Assembly: GCF_004310325.1 (NCBI RefSeq)
Contig: NZ_SIRT01000009.1
Location: 62,001-126,000, forward strand
From: Hyunsoonleella flava
Lineage (GTDB): Bacteria > Bacteroidota > Bacteroidia > Flavobacteriales > Flavobacteriaceae
Reading direction: 5' to 3'
Length of the DNA stretch: 64,000 nt
Shown here: positions 49 to 28,238 of the stretch, piece by piece
Position numbering within the stretch: the first letter of the stretch is position 1
Layout: the number at the start of each line of letters is the position of its first letter
The notes under the pieces: model-generated
Told to the model about the DNA's origin: nothing
Database searches by the model: none
What the model saw: the letters and a program-made list of their open reading frames with translations, nothing else
Translations under genes and position numbers: made by a program

Positions 49-135
49 CCCGCGTTAGGGATTGAACGGCATGTTTGAAATCCCCGACGCAGGAGGGATT
101 GAGTAGTGAAAGCCCGACCCGACAGGGGAACGCCC
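49..135 (+). repeat. Dispersed structured intergenic repeat, copy 1
   Basis: This 87-bp element begins CCCGCGTTAGGGATTGAACG and ends GGGGAACGCCC. It shares most of its sequence with copies at 12369-12463 and, inverted, 23263-23391. Visible folding: closing stem GCGTT (52-56) with AACGC (129-133); inner stem AATCCC (79-84) with GGGATT (95-100); a small 3' hairpin CCC/GGG around 118-127. A second GGGATT at 58-63 could pair with the same AATCCC, giving an alternative fold. It lies between the probable metH stop and metF, so it is likely transcribed. Function unknown. Confidence 0.85.
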
Positions 136-8263: not shown

Positions 8264-9154
8264 TTAATTGGTCAATTCTCTAAAGAGCGATTCCAAACTC
8301 GCATTCTTTTGGTTTAATTGTAAAATCTTTAATTGATTGTCATGGGCAAAATCAAACACGTAAGATCGCATATCCTCTGAAGTTTTAAAGGTTATTTCAT
8401 ATACAAAATCATAAGTATTTACCACCTTTTCAACTTTTGGGAGTTTTAATAAGAAGGCGTCTTCTACACGATAATCAAACTCTACAATAACGGTTTGTTC
8501 TTTTTCGTCCCTTAAATCTTTAAGTTTTTTATCGGCTACAATTTCGCCTTTGTTAATGATGATAACGCGGTCGCACATAGCTTCCACTTCTTGCATGATA
8601 TGAGTGGAAAGAAACACAGTTTTTGTTTTGCCAATGGTTTTAATGAGATTGCGAATATCAATCAATTGGTTGGGGTCCAAGCCCGTTGTAGGTTCGTCCA
8701 AAATTAAAACTTCTGGATCATGCAGTAAGGCGGTAGCTAAACCCACGCGCTGGCGATAGCCCTTTGATAATTGTCCTATTTTTTTGTGAATTTCCGGAGT
8801 GAGCCCCGTCATTTCAATAACTTCGGTAATTCTAGATTTCTCAACTTTATAGATACTGGCGTTGAAGGCCAAATATTCCCTGATATACATATCAAGGTAT
8901 AGCGGGTTGTGTTCTGGTAAATACCCTACACTTTTTTGAATGTTTTGAGTTGTATCGGTTCCATACCCATTTACTTTTGTTTCTCCTGAGGATGGTTGGA
9001 TATAGGTGGTTAAAATCTTCATCATCGTAGATTTTCCAGCACCGTTTGGTCCAAGAAACCCAACTATTTCAGGGCGATCAACACTAAAAGAAATGGTGTT
9101 TAATGCTTTTTGGTTTCCGTAAAGTTTTGATATGTTGCTTACTTCAATAGACAT
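8264..9154 (-). CDS. gldA: Gliding motility ABC transporter ATP-binding protein GldA
   Basis: Cytosolic ATPase subunit of 296 residues with a full set of ABC motifs: Walker A GPNGAGKST near residue 35, Q-loop region PEHNPL near 80, signature LSKGYRQR near 129, Walker B VLILDEPTTGLD near 150 and the switch His in STHIMQEVE. The length and the C-terminal extension after residue 220 match GldA of flavobacteria, which works with the GldF and GldG membrane proteins in gliding. Those partners are not in the window, so another drug- or lipid-export ATPase is possible. A TAnnTTTG element lies just upstream on the minus strand. Confidence 0.75.
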   Translation of the reverse strand: MSIEVSNISKLYGNQKALNTISFSVDRPEIVGFLGPNGAGKSTMMKILTTYIQPSSGETKVNGYGTDTTQNIQKSVGYLPEHNPLYLDMYIREYLAFNASIYKVEKSRITEVIEMTGLTPEIHKKIGQLSKGYRQRVGLATALLHDPEVLILDEPTTGLDPNQLIDIRNLIKTIGKTKTVFLSTHIMQEVEAMCDRVIIINKGEIVADKKLKDLRDEKEQTVIVEFDYRVEDAFLLKLPKVEKVVNTYDFVYEITFKTSEDMRSYVFDFAHDNQLKILQLNQKNASLESLFRELTN

Positions 9155-9171
9155 ATTCCGAAAATGTTTGT

Positions 9172-9179
9172 CAAAAATA
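9172..9179 (-). promoter_or_regulatory. Probable -7 promoter element of gldA
   Basis: The minus strand reads TATTTTTG, a perfect TAnnTTTG match, 17 bp upstream of the gldA ATG, giving a very short untranslated leader. No -33 element was recognised. Confidence 0.5.
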
Positions 9180-9259
9180 GTGATTATGTAATGTAATTTG
9201 AATTTTACTGTAAAATCTTTAAATCTTTTACTAAAACAGGAAAAAAGGTTTTATTGTAT

Positions 9260-9289
9260 TTTGATTTCTTAAAATATTATTTACTTTAG
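9260..9289 (+). promoter_or_regulatory. Probable promoter of the aromatic amino acid operon
   Basis: TTTG at 9260-9263 and TACTTTAG at 9282-9289 (7 of 8 matches to TAnnTTTG) are separated by 18 bp, close to the Bacteroidetes -33/-7 arrangement. Transcription would start about 6-8 bp before the leader peptide ATG at 9301. Confidence 0.45.
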
Positions 9290-9300
9290 CCGTCGTAATT

Positions 9301-9381
9301 ATGAGAACAACAACGTATTATACATATTTTAACTTTTTTTATTTCTTTTTCAGTAGAGAAATCGAGACGTTGTGTGTATAA
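9301..9381 (+). CDS. Phe/Tyr leader peptide of the pheA-tyrA operon
   Basis: A 26-codon frame (ATG at 9301, TAA at 9379) contains four Tyr and six Phe codons between codons 6 and 17 (YYTYFNFFYFFF, 9316-9351). Such a run directly before a phenylalanine/tyrosine operon is the hallmark of a ribosome-sensed attenuator. The codons just after the run (21-23, bases 9361-9368, ATCGAGAC) form the antiterminator segment complementary to 9408-9415. Charged Phe-tRNA or Tyr-tRNA shortage would stall the ribosome on the run and leave that segment free. The peptide itself probably has no other function. Confidence 0.88.
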   Translation: MRTTTYYTYFNFFYFFFSREIETLCV

Positions 9382-9415
9382 TTAAGTAACAATATATTTA
9401 AATACAAGTCTCGAT
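9361..9415 (+). promoter_or_regulatory. Antiterminator pairing of the pheA attenuator
   Basis: ATCGAGAC at 9361-9368, inside the leader frame, is perfectly complementary to GTCTCGAT at 9408-9415, the 5' arm of the terminator. Pairing of the two excludes the terminator. This is the alternative structure expected of an attenuator. Confidence 0.8.
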
Positions 9416-9434
9416 GAAAATCGAGACTTTTTTT
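9406..9434 (+). terminator. Attenuator terminator directly before pheA
   Basis: A perfect 10-bp stem (9406-9415 with 9420-9429) closes a GAAA tetraloop and is followed by T at 9430-9434; the next base is the A of the pheA ATG at 9435. The 5' arm also pairs with the leader segment at 9361-9368, so the structure is conditional. Confidence 0.88.
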
Positions 9435-10262
9435 ATGATTAATACCGTAGCCATACAAGGAATTAGAGGGAGTTTTCACCATATTGTATCTCAGGAGTAT
9501 TTTAATAAACCTGTGGATATTATTGAGTGCATGACCTTTGGTAGAGTGGTGGACGCACTGATTGATGGAGAGTGTGATGCCGCAATTATGGCTTTGGAAA
9601 ATTCCATTGCGGGGTCTATTATACCAAATTACGCCTTAATTGACGATTATCAATTGCATATTGTTGGTGAACATTATTTGGATATTCAGCATAATTTGAT
9701 GGCTTTGCCCAACCAAAGTATTAATGATATTGAAGAGGTGTATTCGCACCCAATGGCGTTATTACAATGTAAGGAGTTTTTTAAGGAGCACCCGCACATA
9801 AAACTTGTTGAAGATAAGGATACAGCTGAGGTTGCGGAGCGAATTAAAAAAGGAGGTTTGAAAAGTATTGGAGCCATTGCAAGTACTTTGGCTGCAGATA
9901 TTTTTGAATTGGATGTGCTAGCGCACAGCATACAGACTATTAAGCATAATGAAACTCGTTTTGCAGTGGTGAAACGTACAAATTCTGAAGTGCCAGAGCA
10001 CGAGATAAACAAGGCATCCATTAAGTTTGAAGCAGATCATAAGCGTGGTAGTTTGGCAACTATTTTAAATGTGATGAGTGATTGTAAATTGAATTTAACG
10101 AAGATTCAATCTTTGCCCATCATTGAAACACCTTGGAAATATGCCTTTTTTGTGGATGTAACTTTTGATGCGTATGCAGATTTTTTAAAAGCAAAGTCGG
10201 TTATTGAAATAATGGGACAGAATTTTAAATTACTAGGTGAATACAAAAATGCTAAGTTATGA
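9435..10262 (+). CDS. pheA: Prephenate dehydratase
   Basis: Converts prephenate to phenylpyruvate, the phenylalanine branch step. I choose the ATG at 9435 (275 residues, starting MINTVAIQGIRGSFHH); the upstream in-frame ATG at 9414 lies inside the attenuator stem and its codons are only the stem and T-run. The catalytic domain covers about residues 1-180, with the Thr-Arg-Phe motif in NETRFAVV; an ACT regulatory domain follows (KRGSLATILNVM onward). The usual ESRP phenylalanine-binding motif of the ACT domain reads QSLP here. It overlaps the next gene by 4 bp (ATGA) and heads the operon controlled by the leader peptide. Confidence 0.95.
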   Translation: MINTVAIQGIRGSFHHIVSQEYFNKPVDIIECMTFGRVVDALIDGECDAAIMALENSIAGSIIPNYALIDDYQLHIVGEHYLDIQHNLMALPNQSINDIEEVYSHPMALLQCKEFFKEHPHIKLVEDKDTAEVAERIKKGGLKSIGAIASTLAADIFELDVLAHSIQTIKHNETRFAVVKRTNSEVPEHEINKASIKFEADHKRGSLATILNVMSDCKLNLTKIQSLPIIETPWKYAFFVDVTFDAYADFLKAKSVIEIMGQNFKLLGEYKNAKL

Positions 10263-11404
10263 TTGAGGTAGCAAAGCGATTACATACAGTTGAAGAGTAT
10301 TACTTCTCAAAAAAACTACGAGAGGTGGGATTGCTTATGGCTAGTGGAAAACCAATTATTAATTTAGGAATTGGAAGTCCAGATTTGCAGCCACCTCAAA
10401 AAGTAATTGATGCTATTTCTGGAAGTCTTGCTGATCCTACAGCACATAAATACCAAGGATATCAAGGGTTGCCCGAATTGAGAGAGGCCATGGCAGCGTT
10501 TTACAAGGAGCATTTTTCGGTAAACGTAAATGCTACAAATGAAATACTACCACTCATGGGCAGTAAGGAAGGTATTATGCACATTTCTATGGCATATTTA
10601 AATGAAGGAGATGAGGTGTTGATCCCAAATCCTGGATACCCAACGTATCAAGCTGTTACCAAATTGGTAGGTGCTAAGATTGTAACTTATGATTTGGATG
10701 CGAGTAATAATTGGATGCCAAATATTGAAGCTTTAGAACAAACAGATTTAAGCAAAGTGAAGTTGATGTGGGTAAATTATCCGCATATGCCAACAGGTGC
10801 AACGCCTACAGAAACGGTTTTTGAGGATGTGGTGGCGTTTGCAAAACGTAATAATATTTTAATCGTTAATGATAATCCGTATAGCTTTGTCTTAAACGAT
10901 AACCCGAGGAGTATTTTAAGTGTTGAAGGCGCGAAAGATGTGTGTTTGGAGTTAAACTCGTTGAGTAAAACGTTTAATATGGCTGGATGGCGTGTGGGGA
11001 TGGTTTTAGGCAATAGTGAGCACATCAGCAATATTTTAAAAGTGAAAAGCAACATGGACTCTGGGATGTTTTATGGCATTCAAAAGGGAGCTATTGAGGC
11101 TTTAAAATGTTCTAAAATGTGGTTTGTAACGCTTAATAGCGTTTATAAAAGGCGCCGTGATTTGGTATGGAAATTGGCCGAAGCGTTGAACTGTACTTAT
11201 GATAAGAACGCTACAGGCATGTTTGTGTGGGCAAAATTACCACCATATCTAAAATCTGAAGAATTTATTGACCTCGTATTAAAGAACAACCATATATTCA
11301 TTACGCCAGGAACTATTTTTGGCAGTCAGGGTGAAGGATATATTCGGTTTTCGCTTTGTGCATCAACTGAGATTTTAGAGGAAGCTATAGCCCGAGTAAA
11401 ATAG
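10259..11404 (+). CDS. PLP-dependent aminotransferase class I, probably aromatic aminotransferase
   Basis: A 381-residue fold-type I aminotransferase. The PLP lysine is in SLSKTFNMAGWRVG (about residue 240), the PLP-ring Asp in NDNPYSFV and the substrate-carboxylate Arg in YIRFSLCAS near the C-terminus; the NPxNPTG loop appears as NYPHMPTG. It sits between prephenate dehydratase and prephenate dehydrogenase with a 4-bp overlap to pheA and 2 bp to tyrA, so the natural role is transamination of phenylpyruvate and 4-hydroxyphenylpyruvate to Phe and Tyr. The family also contains aspartate and diaminopimelate enzymes; the aromatic role rests on context. Confidence 0.85.
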   Translation: MIEVAKRLHTVEEYYFSKKLREVGLLMASGKPIINLGIGSPDLQPPQKVIDAISGSLADPTAHKYQGYQGLPELREAMAAFYKEHFSVNVNATNEILPLMGSKEGIMHISMAYLNEGDEVLIPNPGYPTYQAVTKLVGAKIVTYDLDASNNWMPNIEALEQTDLSKVKLMWVNYPHMPTGATPTETVFEDVVAFAKRNNILIVNDNPYSFVLNDNPRSILSVEGAKDVCLELNSLSKTFNMAGWRVGMVLGNSEHISNILKVKSNMDSGMFYGIQKGAIEALKCSKMWFVTLNSVYKRRRDLVWKLAEALNCTYDKNATGMFVWAKLPPYLKSEEFIDLVLKNNHIFITPGTIFGSQGEGYIRFSLCASTEILEEAIARVK

Positions 11405-11406
11405 AT

Positions 11407-12258
11407 ATGAAGAATATATACGCCATAGGAGTTGGTTTAATAGGAGGCAGTCTTGCTATCGATATCAAGAAGCATCGTCCAGATACTGTAATTCATGGTA
11501 TTAGTAGAAAAGATGCCACCCTCAACAAAGCGCTGGAGTTGGGCTTAATTGATGAAAAAGCCACTTTGGATGATATTGAAAATGCTGATTTGGTAATTGT
11601 TTCTATTCCTGTGGATGCTACAGTAAAATTGTTACCAACTATTTTAGATAAGATATCTGATACAGGTTTGGTAGTGGATGCAGGTTCAACGAAAGAAGAT
11701 ATCTGCAAAGTTGTTGAAAACCACCCAAAACGCAGAAATTTTTTAGCGATGCACCCCATAGCAGGTACTGAACATTCTGGACCAACGGCTGCGATTGAGG
11801 GTTTGTTTGTCGGGAAAACTAATATTGTTTGTGAGGTTGAAAAAACAACGTTTAAGTTGCAGGAAAAGGCTTTGAAGTTGTTTACAGATATAGGTATGCG
11901 TATTCGATATATGAATCCTGTGGAGCACGATAGGCACATTGCTTATGTATCACATCTGTCACATATCAGCTCGTTTATGTTAGGGAAAACGGTAATTGAA
12001 AAAGAAAAAAACGAACGTGATATTTTTGATATGGCTGGCAGTGGATTTGCATCAACAGTACGTTTGGCAAAAAGTTCGCCAGAGATGTGGACGCCTATTT
12101 TTAAGCAGAATAAGACTAATGTAATTGAAACATTGGACGAGTATATTAATAACCTTACACATTTTAAGGAATTAATGAAGGATGATAATTTTGAAGCAAT
12201 TTATGAGGAGATGAAAAACACCAATCATATTAAGGATATTTTGAATGGGATAATTTAA
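11407..12258 (+). CDS. tyrA: Prephenate dehydrogenase
   Basis: Oxidatively decarboxylates prephenate to 4-hydroxyphenylpyruvate, committing to tyrosine. 283 residues: an N-terminal NAD(P) Rossmann domain opening IGVGLIGGSLAIDIKK, then the substrate site with the conserved His in MHPIAGTEHSGP (near 118) and a helical C-terminal domain (HIAYVSHLSHISSF). No fused chorismate mutase is present; that activity is on the next gene. Third gene of the attenuated operon. Its stop is followed within 7 bp by ten copies of a heptamer and then the second dispersed repeat, both inside the presumed operon. Confidence 0.93.
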   Translation: MKNIYAIGVGLIGGSLAIDIKKHRPDTVIHGISRKDATLNKALELGLIDEKATLDDIENADLVIVSIPVDATVKLLPTILDKISDTGLVVDAGSTKEDICKVVENHPKRRNFLAMHPIAGTEHSGPTAAIEGLFVGKTNIVCEVEKTTFKLQEKALKLFTDIGMRIRYMNPVEHDRHIAYVSHLSHISSFMLGKTVIEKEKNERDIFDMAGSGFASTVRLAKSSPEMWTPIFKQNKTNVIETLDEYINNLTHFKELMKDDNFEAIYEEMKNTNHIKDILNGII

Positions 12259-12261
12259 AGG

Positions 12262-12335
<74 letters not shown>

Positions 12336-12368: not shown

Positions 12369-12463
12369 CCCGCGTTAGGGATTGAACGGCATGTTTGATA
12401 TCCCCGACGAAGGAGGGATTGAGTAGTGAAAGCCCGACGCCGAGGATAGGAGGCGTAACGCCC
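12369..12463 (+). repeat. Dispersed structured intergenic repeat, copy 2
   Basis: This 95-bp copy matches copy 1 almost base for base over its first 70 bp. Closing stem GCGTTA (12372-12377) with TAACGC (12456-12461); a 3' hairpin ACGCC/GGCGT with a purine-rich loop replaces the CCC/GGG hairpin of copy 1, so the pairing is kept while the sequence changes. It sits between the heptamer array and aroF, probably inside the operon transcript. Confidence 0.88.
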
Positions 12464-12535: not shown

Positions 12536-13618
12536 ATGGAAAACAAAAAAGAAATGAGAACTTGGTTGGATGATTTAGGATTAGATCATCCGTTAGTAAT
12601 TGCAGGCCCGTGTAGTGCCGAGACAGAAGAGCAGGTTTTAAAAATTGCACATGAGTTAAAAGATACTGACGTAAATTACTATAGAGCCGGTATTTGGAAA
12701 CCAAGAACTCGCCCAGGGAACTTTGAAGGCGTGGGGCATTTGGGCCTAAAATGGCTACAAAAAGTGAAGGAAGAAACTGGGATGAAAACAGCCACTGAGG
12801 TTGCTAATGCGGCACATGTGAAGTTAGCCTTGGAGCATGATATTGATTTATTGTGGATTGGGGCACGCTCTACGGTGAGTCCGTTTATTGTTCAGGAAAT
12901 TGCTGATGCGTTAGAGGGAACAGATAAAATAGTTTTGGTGAAAAACCCTGTAAACCCAGATTTACCGCTATGGTTAGGCGCTATTGAGCGTTTGTATTCT
13001 TCTAACATCAAAAAATTGGGGGTAATACACAGAGGGTTTTCTACTTATGAAAAAACAAAGTATAGAAACAAACCAAAATGGCAATTGGCTATTGAGTTAC
13101 AAAGAAGATTTCCGGATTTACCGATAATTAATGATCCTTCGCACATTACAGGTAAAAGGGATATGATTTTTGATGTGTCTCAAACGGCCTTGGATTTAAA
13201 CTTTGATGGTTTGATGATTGAAACGCACATTGATCCTGATAATGCTTGGAGTGATGCGGCGCAACAGGTAACGCCATCAACATTAGTTCAGATTATGGAA
13301 GATTTAAAAATTAGAAAGGAAACGGATGCTGAAGCAGAGTATAACAGTGCTTTGGATAACTTAAGAGCTCAAATTGATGTTGTAGACAATCAAATTATTG
13401 AATTGCTTGGAACCAGAATGAAGGCTTCAGATGGGATAGGTGCCCTTAAAAAGCAAAAGAATGTTGCTGTTTTACAGAGCAAACGTTGGAATGAAATTTT
13501 AGGACGTATGGTACTTGAAGGTCAAGATCATGGTTTGAGTGAAGAATTTATATTGAAGATGTTTAAGGCGATTCACCAAGAATCTATTAACCATCAGGAA
13601 AAGATTATCAATGGTTAA
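12536..13618 (+). CDS. aroF: Bifunctional DAHP synthase / chorismate mutase
   Basis: Fusion protein of 360 residues. Residues 1 to about 260 are a type I-beta DAHP synthase (AGPCSAE near residue 23, RAGIWKPRTRPGNFEGVG near 50, NDPSHITGKRDM near 200), which condenses phosphoenolpyruvate and erythrose 4-phosphate to start the shikimate pathway. From about residue 273 an AroQ-type chorismate mutase follows (LRAQIDVVDNQIIELLGTRM), which makes prephenate for the neighbouring TyrA and PheA. In related fusions the mutase domain gives prephenate feedback control. It closes the aromatic operon and is followed by a strong terminator; the 277-bp gap from tyrA leaves room for a separate promoter, though none is clear. 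Confidence 0.95.
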   Translation: MENKKEMRTWLDDLGLDHPLVIAGPCSAETEEQVLKIAHELKDTDVNYYRAGIWKPRTRPGNFEGVGHLGLKWLQKVKEETGMKTATEVANAAHVKLALEHDIDLLWIGARSTVSPFIVQEIADALEGTDKIVLVKNPVNPDLPLWLGAIERLYSSNIKKLGVIHRGFSTYEKTKYRNKPKWQLAIELQRRFPDLPIINDPSHITGKRDMIFDVSQTALDLNFDGLMIETHIDPDNAWSDAAQQVTPSTLVQIMEDLKIRKETDAEAEYNSALDNLRAQIDVVDNQIIELLGTRMKASDGIGALKKQKNVAVLQSKRWNEILGRMVLEGQDHGLSEEFILKMFKAIHQESINHQEKIING

Positions 13619-23262: not shown

Positions 23263-23391
23263 GGGCGTTCCATAAGGGTCGGGCCTGCCTGCCGATAGGC
23301 AGGCTTTCACTATTCAATCCCCTCTGCGTCGGGGGTTTCAAACATCTGTGCTGAGCGCATTCGAAACATGCCGTTCAATCCCAATCGCGGG
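23263..23391 (-). repeat. Dispersed structured intergenic repeat, copy 3, with two nested inserts
   Basis: This is the same element as copies 1 and 2 but inverted and 129 bp long. Two insertions account for the extra length: 23346-23363, flanked on both sides by AAACAT and containing CTGAGCGCATTCG; and a 7-bp-stem palindrome GCCTGCC/GGCAGGC at 23287-23304. Core sequences GGGATTGAACGGCATG and GGGATTGAATAGTGAAAGCC (minus strand) are retained, as is the terminal GGAACGCCC. Confidence 0.87.
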
Positions 23392-27152: not shown

Positions 27153-28238
27153 ATGCAAACAATTACAAAGTATTTCGTATTAATTATTCTAAGCTTATGT
27201 GTGCAACTCATCACTGCACAAGACACTATTCCAAAAACAGTAAATCAGGCTGAAATACAAAAGCTAAAAGAAACCATAAAAAAGGTTGAAGCTGAAGAGA
27301 AAGCGCTTTTAAAAGCCGAAGTAGAGGCCATCGATGCACGTTTAAAAAATGGAGAAATAACCCAAAAGGAAGCCCAAGACCTAAAAATGGAAATGGCAAA
27401 AAAACGCGCGTTGAATATTGAAAATCGTACCGCAATCCTAACAAATAAAATTGCCTTATTGGAACGCAATGAAAAAGGATATGGAGAAGAAGAGGATGAT
27501 GACGTGGATTATATAAGAATTGGATCGGACGATGAAGATCTTAGTTGGATTTATATCGGTAAAAAGAAAAACGATAAACCAAAGTACAGAAAATATGACC
27601 GACGTACCAAAAGTGATTTTGTTTTAGCCTTTGGACTGAACAACGCTATCATAGACGGACAGAGTTTTGACGATACGCCATATAAAATTGGTGGCTCCCG
27701 CTTTTTTGAGATGGGTTGGGCATGGAAATATCGTCTGTTTAAAAACTCAAACTTTGCACGTTTTAAATACGGTGTGTCTTTACATATTAATGGCTTAAAA
27801 CCTAATGATAACCAGTATTTTGTAAAGAATGGCAACCAAACTATGCTCGAGGAATTCCCTGAAAACCTAAGAAAATCAAAGCTAACAGTGACGAATTTGG
27901 TATTCCCTGTACATTTTGAGTTTGGCCCATCTAAGAAAATTGAAAGAGACACCTATTTTAGATATTCAACAAAAAGGAAGTTTAAGATTGGGGTTGGCGG
28001 ATATGCTGGTTTCAATATTGGGACACGCCAGAAACTAAAATATGATTTGGATGGAGAACGAATAAAAGACAAGCAAAAACGAGGCTTAAATACTACCGAT
28101 TTAGTTTACGGACTAAGTGCCTACGTGGCCTTTGGTAATACAGCATTATATCTTAAATACGATTTGTCACCTATTTTTAAAGACCAAATTGTAGATCAAA
28201 ATAACATATCATTAGGTGTACGATTTGATATGGATTAA
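27153..28238 (+). CDS. Outer-membrane beta-barrel protein with periplasmic coiled coil
   Basis: 361 residues. A signal peptide (about 1-22, ending ITAQ) precedes a strongly charged helical segment (residues 27-110, rich in Lys, Glu and Ala, probably a coiled coil), an acidic patch EEEDDDVDY near 112, and a C-terminal porin-like domain from about 150 with alternating aromatic strands and a final strand NNISLGVRFDMD. The family is unnamed to me. Being the third gene of the sigma operon, it may be either the regulon's output or its sensor of envelope state. A hairpin follows 22 bp after the stop. Confidence 0.7.
   Translation: MQTITKYFVLIILSLCVQLITAQDTIPKTVNQAEIQKLKETIKKVEAEEKALLKAEVEAIDARLKNGEITQKEAQDLKMEMAKKRALNIENRTAILTNKIALLERNEKGYGEEEDDDVDYIRIGSDDEDLSWIYIGKKKNDKPKYRKYDRRTKSDFVLAFGLNNAIIDGQSFDDTPYKIGGSRFFEMGWAWKYRLFKNSNFARFKYGVSLHINGLKPNDNQYFVKNGNQTMLEEFPENLRKSKLTVTNLVFPVHFEFGPSKKIERDTYFRYSTKRKFKIGVGGYAGFNIGTRQKLKYDLDGERIKDKQKRGLNTTDLVYGLSAYVAFGNTALYLKYDLSPIFKDQIVDQNNISLGVRFDMD

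Follow-up and report, generated by a model that had tools for sequence, protein, structure and literature searches.

A predicted leader-peptide attenuator pooling aromatic amino acids upstream of pheA in Hyunsoonleella flava and related Flavobacteriaceae

Directly upstream of pheA in Hyunsoonleella flava lies a short open reading frame dense in tyrosine and phenylalanine codons, followed by a hairpin; the locus raises the question of whether this arrangement is a ribosome-mediated attenuator and, if so, which amino acids it reads. The stretch analysed (64,000 nucleotides of contig NZ_SIRT01000009.1; hereafter the window) carries the leader and its downstream genes on the forward strand. The leader comprises 26 codons (9301-9381; ATG at 9301, stop codon at 9379-9381), reads MRTTTYYTYFNFFYFFFSREIETLCV, and contains four Tyr and six Phe codons within 9316-9351. 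Nine nucleotides past the last Phe codon begins segment A (ATCGAGAC, 9361-9368), the putative antiterminator strand. Segments B (AAGTCTCGAT, 9406-9415) and C (ATCGAGACTT, 9420-9429) are the 5' and 3' arms of a terminator with a 10-bp stem, a GAAA loop, and a T run that extends to 9434, immediately before the pheA ATG (9435). A scan of the window for terminators likewise returned a 10-pair stem followed by T before pheA. The eight letters of segment A are those of 9420-9427 in arm C, so that both can pair with positions 9408-9415 of B, which is a potential partner of either. Folding of the 140-nt leader gave a z-score of −3.5, with 1 of 200 dinucleotide shuffles equally good. An initial sequence-only reading of the locus had placed the leader, segment A, and the terminator at these positions, and rereading of the sequence confirmed each exactly.

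A predicted −7-box-like element, TACTTTAG (9282-9289), matches five of the six specified positions of TAnnTTTG, a consensus named in passages of PMC9723704; a promoter is predicted here, with the transcript starting a few nucleotides 5' of the leader ATG. In 174 of 189 loci, the 45 nt preceding the leader ATG include a site with at least five of the six positions; shuffled sequence gave 91 of 189.

The operon itself begins with the prephenate dehydratase gene pheA (9435-10262; Pfam PDT, E 4.9e-56, with NCBIfam matches below their cut-offs), followed by a class I/II aminotransferase (10259-11404; Pfam Aminotran_1_2), the prephenate dehydrogenase gene tyrA (11407-12258; NF006307 above its cut-off, Pfam PDH_N and PDH_C), and a DAHP synthase/chorismate mutase fusion (12536-13618; DAHP_synth_1, PF00793, and CM_2, PF01817). 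The best-scoring models for the aminotransferase at 10259-11404 describe LL-diaminopimelate aminotransferases, with scores below their cut-offs; given the operon, an aromatic aminotransferase is the more likely product. Upstream of the leader, on the opposite strand, is gldA. All 74 named relatives whose loci extend about 5 kb to either side keep the four genes in order and gldA upstream. It had been proposed that one device controls all four genes; the conserved order makes this likely, but tyrA and the DAHP synthase gene are 277 nt apart in the window, enough space for the latter to have a promoter of its own. This interval also holds a perfect tandem repeat of the 7-bp unit AGGAGAC (12265-12335; 10.1 copies), and strains could differ in how many copies they carry. 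Allowing up to two mismatches, a dispersed repeat that starts CCGCGTTAGGGATTGAAC was found at window positions 50-67, 12370-12387, and 23373-23390 (reverse strand), where shuffles gave an expectation of 0; by eye, it is also seen ahead of ilvD elsewhere in this genome (L251, about 1004-1155).

We read the structure before pheA as a classical ribosome-mediated transcription attenuator that pools Phe and Tyr and, in many relatives, Trp too; from comparative sequence evidence, we give this reading a probability of roughly 90%. The device would respond jointly to the supply of charged tRNAs for Tyr and Phe (and, in many relatives, for Trp), and for its operation we infer leader translation, ribosome stalling, termination, and a starvation response. 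With all of the charged tRNAs plentiful, the ribosome would reach the stop codon at 9379-9381 and cover A; B would then pair with C, the terminator would form, and the transcript would end before pheA. With any one of these tRNAs in short supply, the ribosome would stall within 9316-9351 and A would stay free, pairing with B once B had been made; C would be left single and the polymerase would enter pheA-aminotransferase-tyrA-DAHP synthase. The observations that bear on this reading are the anatomy itself, its conservation, the co-variation of A, B, and C between groups of loci, a fixed spacing, and a coding signature.

AT-rich DNA often contains Tyr and Phe codons, though not the Trp codon TGG; a chance ORF in such sequence was considered as an explanation for the leader and rejected on the basis of an 837-kb control. 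Under a rule specifying an ATG-initiated ORF of 8-45 amino acids, at least seven aromatic residues in 12, and a terminator within 95 nt, the combination of leader and terminator occurred nowhere away from pheA in 837,346 bases, both strands, of the 80 named loci. Aromatic ORFs lacking a terminator numbered 20 elsewhere in these loci, with one more upstream of pheA in L036. Within the 64-kb window, the single aromatic ORF with a terminator is the pheA leader; a second such ORF, at 27652 on the reverse strand, is without one.

The leader and terminator are also widely conserved. Of 283 relatives found, the 80 closest (the named relatives) were checked locus by locus, and 79 of them carry both upstream of pheA; in the 80th, L110, the contig starts inside the leader, and the leader tail and terminator are visible. 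Among 80 further loci of the family, 77 have both, 75 under the strict terminator rule and two (L133, L164) under a looser one; these upstream regions were drawn from 178 of 199 family genomes with pheA, and since the genomes omitted are mostly small or fragmented, the rate is perhaps somewhat high. Three loci did not score. In L172, a terminator is visible together with the end of an aromatic leader, YSGSFFYFFFKREAGLL, whose beginning falls outside the 450 nt covered. The other two, L129 and L189, have no device within 450 nt of pheA, which indicates that it is dispensable. In L129 (genome G013), the attenuator site upstream of pheA appears by eye to be filled by repeated stretches of an intergenic element. 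All 13 family genomes met again or anew in a search of the order also have leader and terminator. The expectation of aromatic-rich leaders in relatives is thus borne out in both sets, and the window, the 79 named loci, and the 77 further loci together make up the 157 family loci used below. In an alignment of 68 sequences, whose rows were picked from hairpin-bearing loci, 100% of cells in the intrinsic terminator before pheA are paired.

The predicted A/B complementarity and A/B/C co-variation were recovered between groups of family loci. Segments were compared by script; pair counts exclude an alignment of 86 leader ends, some rows of which were misaligned in the B arm. The A:B pairing score averaged 16.6 across the 157 loci, compared with 10.1 for dinucleotide-shuffled A regions and 12.9 for B segments taken from other loci. 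Family B segments fall into two main types, class I with GTCTCG and class II with GTCCCG, and the A found with each type suits its B. A windows of class I score 16.3 when paired with B of their own class and 9.0 with that of class II; those of class II reach 17.7 with their own B and, helped by G-U pairs, 15.0 with that of class I. Among 38 loci with other sorts of B, 22 have a B whose fit to its own A exceeds its fit to over 95% of common-class A windows (21 of 37 when genome G127, present twice, is counted once), though several of these loci are close relatives and do not represent independent events; the remaining 16 fall below the 95% line, and the choice of hairpin is perhaps wrong in three of them (L136, L212, L214). 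Co-varying A and B pairs include AGAGCGGTC / GACCGCTTT in L211, CGAGGCTTT / AAAGCCTCG in L207, and AGGCGGGA / TCCCGCCT in L221. Within class I alone (the 68-sequence alignment), 89.9% of A:B cells are paired, with no double-sided change and no excess over shuffles, because A and B hardly vary there. Together, the A:B scores and the class comparison identify a putative antiterminator that overlaps the leader end and is exclusive with the terminator.

The position of A relative to the codons is similarly constrained. With A defined as whichever segment between the last aromatic codon and B pairs best with B, its start lies 9-12 nt past that codon in 148 of the 157 family loci. The front edge of a ribosome should lie about 9 nt beyond the codon in its decoding site; a ribosome stalled at any of the aromatic codons would therefore leave A free, and one at the stop codon would cover it. 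This spacing is the arrangement that an attenuator needs.

The pairing of A with B before C has been made is predicted at −16.3 kcal/mol and the terminator fold available afterwards at −17.7 kcal/mol. A point against the reading is that, with no ribosome present, the fold up to 9415 prefers A:B over a covered A. Two further pairings may bear on the fate of A. Segment D (9317-9327), within the Tyr codons, is pairable with segment E (9372-9382), the leader end including the stop codon; additionally, segment 1 (9336-9348), in the Phe-codon stretch, is pairable with a purine stretch at 9355-9367 and could thereby cover A, giving a 1:2-like hairpin (−6.3 kcal/mol for 9330-9370). Across 68 class I leaders, 93.4% of D:E cells are paired. 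Twelve cells changed on both sides, all within D:E, compared with 3.3 for the whole structure in shuffles, but seven of the 12 reflect one U-A to C-G change, perhaps a single event, and the count of three D:E pairs changed on both sides was matched by 88 of 500 shuffles. RNAalifold, run on 68 class I leaders, favours the other pairing, that of the Phe codons with the A-bearing purine stretch. Both the D:E helix and the Phe-codon hairpin, as modelled, resemble a classical protector hairpin. Pairing of the 5' part of the leader with A showed no excess over shuffled sequence (scores of 10.25 and 10.85, respectively), with 13 of 189 loci below 0.05.

The hairpin could alternatively act mainly by blocking initiation of pheA translation, its opening or closing being set by the ribosome on the leader. 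In favour of this, only 5 nt separate the stem from the pheA ATG in the window, and at most 12 nt do so in 56 of 157 family loci; however, the stem ends 40-114 nt from pheA in 65 of the 157, a distance at which a direct block of initiation is hardly to be expected and termination is still feasible, and the T run is conserved. Passages of PMC6847099 describe initiation tuned by mRNA structure in Flavobacterium johnsoniae, as a translation block would have it, and report that Bacteroidetes mRNAs are without Shine-Dalgarno sequences and that an A at −3 favours initiation in this species. On balance we regard a primarily translational block as very unlikely. The leader ATG has A at −3 in 151 of 189 loci.

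The leader had been proposed to sense Phe and Tyr jointly, and the exchange of these residues at its last four codons supports that proposal. In 77 distant family leaders, codons −4 to −1 are aromatic in all 77, with Tyr and Phe both found at each position, though the definition of the last codon requires it to be aromatic and the way it is located favours aromatic neighbours; no residue other than Phe or Tyr occurs at these four codons in the 77. A few other residues appear there in loci from the wider order and class. None of the 157 family leaders has fewer than two Tyr or three Phe codons. The list of residues sensed does need correction: a Trp codon is present in 96 of the 157 leaders, of which the distant set contributes 58 (of 77) and the near set, which includes the window, 38 (of 80). 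None is present in the window, in Jejuia (L031), or in four Hyunsoonleella loci (L032, L036, L045, L069).

Codon usage carries a signature of its own. At the last four codons of the window and its 79 near relatives, the rarer letter falls in the third position 11 times, in the second once, and in the first never, as expected of translated codons. Over the last eight codons of all 157 leaders, however, summed entropies are 6.9 bits at second, 6.7 at third, and 3.9 at first positions; the similar variability of second and third positions arises in part because replacing Tyr by Phe, or the reverse, alters the second letter. Among 121 class I leaders, 112 have TTC as the third codon from the end, while the two codons after it are TTT in 113 and 114; this hints at an additional RNA-level constraint.

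These codon counts also bear on the possibility that the device senses Phe only, the Tyr (and Trp) codons being passengers of AT-rich sequence. Phe is the commonest residue (a mean of 5.36 per leader in near and 5.22 in distant family loci), codons −3, −2, and −1 are Phe in 64, 70, and 69 of the 77 distant leaders, and the E. coli pheA leader is Phe-based. Passengers, however, would hardly be expected to include at least two Tyr codons in 157 of 157 leaders or a Trp codon in 58 of 77 distant ones; nor does a Phe-only device fit the occurrence of Tyr instead of Phe, in part of the 77 distant leaders, at every one of the last four positions, or an operon that includes tyrA and DAHP synthase. We consider Phe-only sensing unlikely and favour pooling of the aromatic amino acids.

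Pooling through translation is in turn preferred over another kind of sensor, such as a tRNA-binding T-box, a riboswitch, or an RNA-binding protein, acting on an untranslated leader ORF. Such a sensor would account for the conservation of leader RNA sequence among near relatives; it would not account for the match between peptide residues and operon, a match repeated by His and Trp leaders before hisG and trpE, and the Rfam scan of the window at gathering level returned only a tRNA. It is the most improbable of the readings weighed here. T-box and riboswitch candidates were sought separately in a lax Rfam scan of 9150-9600 and rejected, the three subthreshold matches being to neither. Assignment to the Rfam Phe_leader family (RF01859) was likewise rejected, since its full-length match scored 25.6 bits (E 0.038), below the gathering threshold of 55.

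The hisG and trpE leaders are found in other operons of the same genome. The hisG leader reads MTFTQTHHHFYICSQAK and is followed by the segment CTCAAGCG, which starts 13 nt past the last His codon and fits the 5' arm of the hisG terminator, CGTTTGAG; leader, segment, and terminator lie in L246 at 1187-1303. The trpE leader, a WWW leader, reads MNKSLNNTWWWCFRN and is followed by a terminator (together L247, 2387-2510, reverse strand); no A segment was resolved in it by the script. The hisG leader thus resembles that of pheA in its matching codons, its terminator, and a segment fitting the 5' arm, and the trpE leader in its matching codons and terminator, each with a different amino acid. Within the family, hisG was located in 33 of 41 and trpE in 39 of 41 genomes, and the best 30 loci of each, the window's own genome included, were examined: a His-rich leader with terminator precedes hisG in 29 of 30 (27 with HHH; L260 is without), and a WWW leader with terminator precedes trpE in all 30. 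Between the trpE terminator and trpE in the window's genome is an ORF that by eye resembles a GIY-YIG nuclease. No leader was seen before ilvD in this genome (L251). Nor did one turn up in the stretches read at two homoserine dehydrogenase loci, although these stretches probably end short of the operon start.

Outside the Flavobacteriaceae, the pheA device becomes patchier. Fifteen loci from other families of the order, judged by a looser rule of 5 aromatic residues in 12, comprised nine with leader and terminator, two with the leader only, and four with neither. At the class level, both were found in 15 of 27 loci (L219-L245), five others having a leader without a recognised terminator and seven having neither; a later sample, scored by the rule applied to hisG and trpE, added five of six with both (L253, L255, L257-L259; L252 was negative). 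In that sample's loci from other classes of the phylum, leader and terminator were present in three of 22 (L254, L256, L318). The pheA proteins of these three are 43-45% identical to that of the window, above the rest of the sample, so that transfer is possible. It is about an even call whether these data reflect an ancient Bacteroidia attenuator, in which a single leader pools the three aromatics and selection acts on "any aromatic codon", forming a network with the trpE WWW and hisG His leaders and operating with ribosomes that do not use Shine-Dalgarno pairing.

Part of this picture has precedent. Passages of a 2021 paper on Flavobacterium psychrophilum (PMC9723704) describe 64 structured 5' regions and "strong clues" of leader-peptide attenuation before amino acid operons; the elements upstream of pheA and hisG are reported there as transcribed, present in other genera, and without Rfam hits, and are called original and worth study. 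These are the same genes in the same family as in our analysis, and we take the F. psychrophilum elements, as those passages present them, to be the leaders described here. The relevant section of PMC9723704 gives no leader sequence, pooled sensing, A/B/C co-variation, or broader distribution. The suggestion that such sensing is poorly documented in Bacteroidota consequently holds in part: passages of PMC9723704 already point to leader-peptide attenuation in Flavobacteriaceae, but among the titles, abstract openings, and passages of the literature matches listed, no description of a pooled Phe/Tyr/Trp leader in Bacteroidota was found. Short leader-peptide-like ORFs awaiting validation are mentioned for Bacteroides thetaiotaomicron in a passage of PMC7366714. 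From four Rfam attenuator motifs only, passages of PMC3766115 propose that amino acid attenuators are perhaps gamma-proteobacterial in origin, with very few transfers. In the present analysis, three attenuators (pheA, hisG, and trpE) are predicted in nearly all Flavobacteriaceae loci examined, and the aromatic one would pool two or three amino acids. The leaders described here also offer a concrete, testable reading of the F. psychrophilum pheA and hisG 5' elements. A 2004 survey of attenuators by Vitreschak and others reportedly mentions Bacteroidetes/Chlorobi in its abstract. Attenuation of this kind would imply tight timing between ribosome and RNA polymerase in a phylum that initiates translation without Shine-Dalgarno sequences.

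Among known systems, the closest parallel is E. coli pheL-pheA, in which a leader peptide with Phe codons and competing antiterminator and terminator structures precede pheA. The window shares with it the Phe-codon leader, the opposition of antiterminator and terminator, and pheA downstream. Unlike pheL-pheA, its leader adds Tyr (and, in relatives, Trp), its sequence and phylum are different, and its operon includes tyrA and DAHP synthase. The ilv and thr leaders of E. coli each pool several related amino acids in one leader, and the predicted device resembles them in this respect; those leaders read branched-chain amino acids or Thr and Ile, whereas the amino acids here are aromatic. Pooled aromatic sensing would be the distinctive trait of this well-conserved device among ribosome-mediated attenuators.
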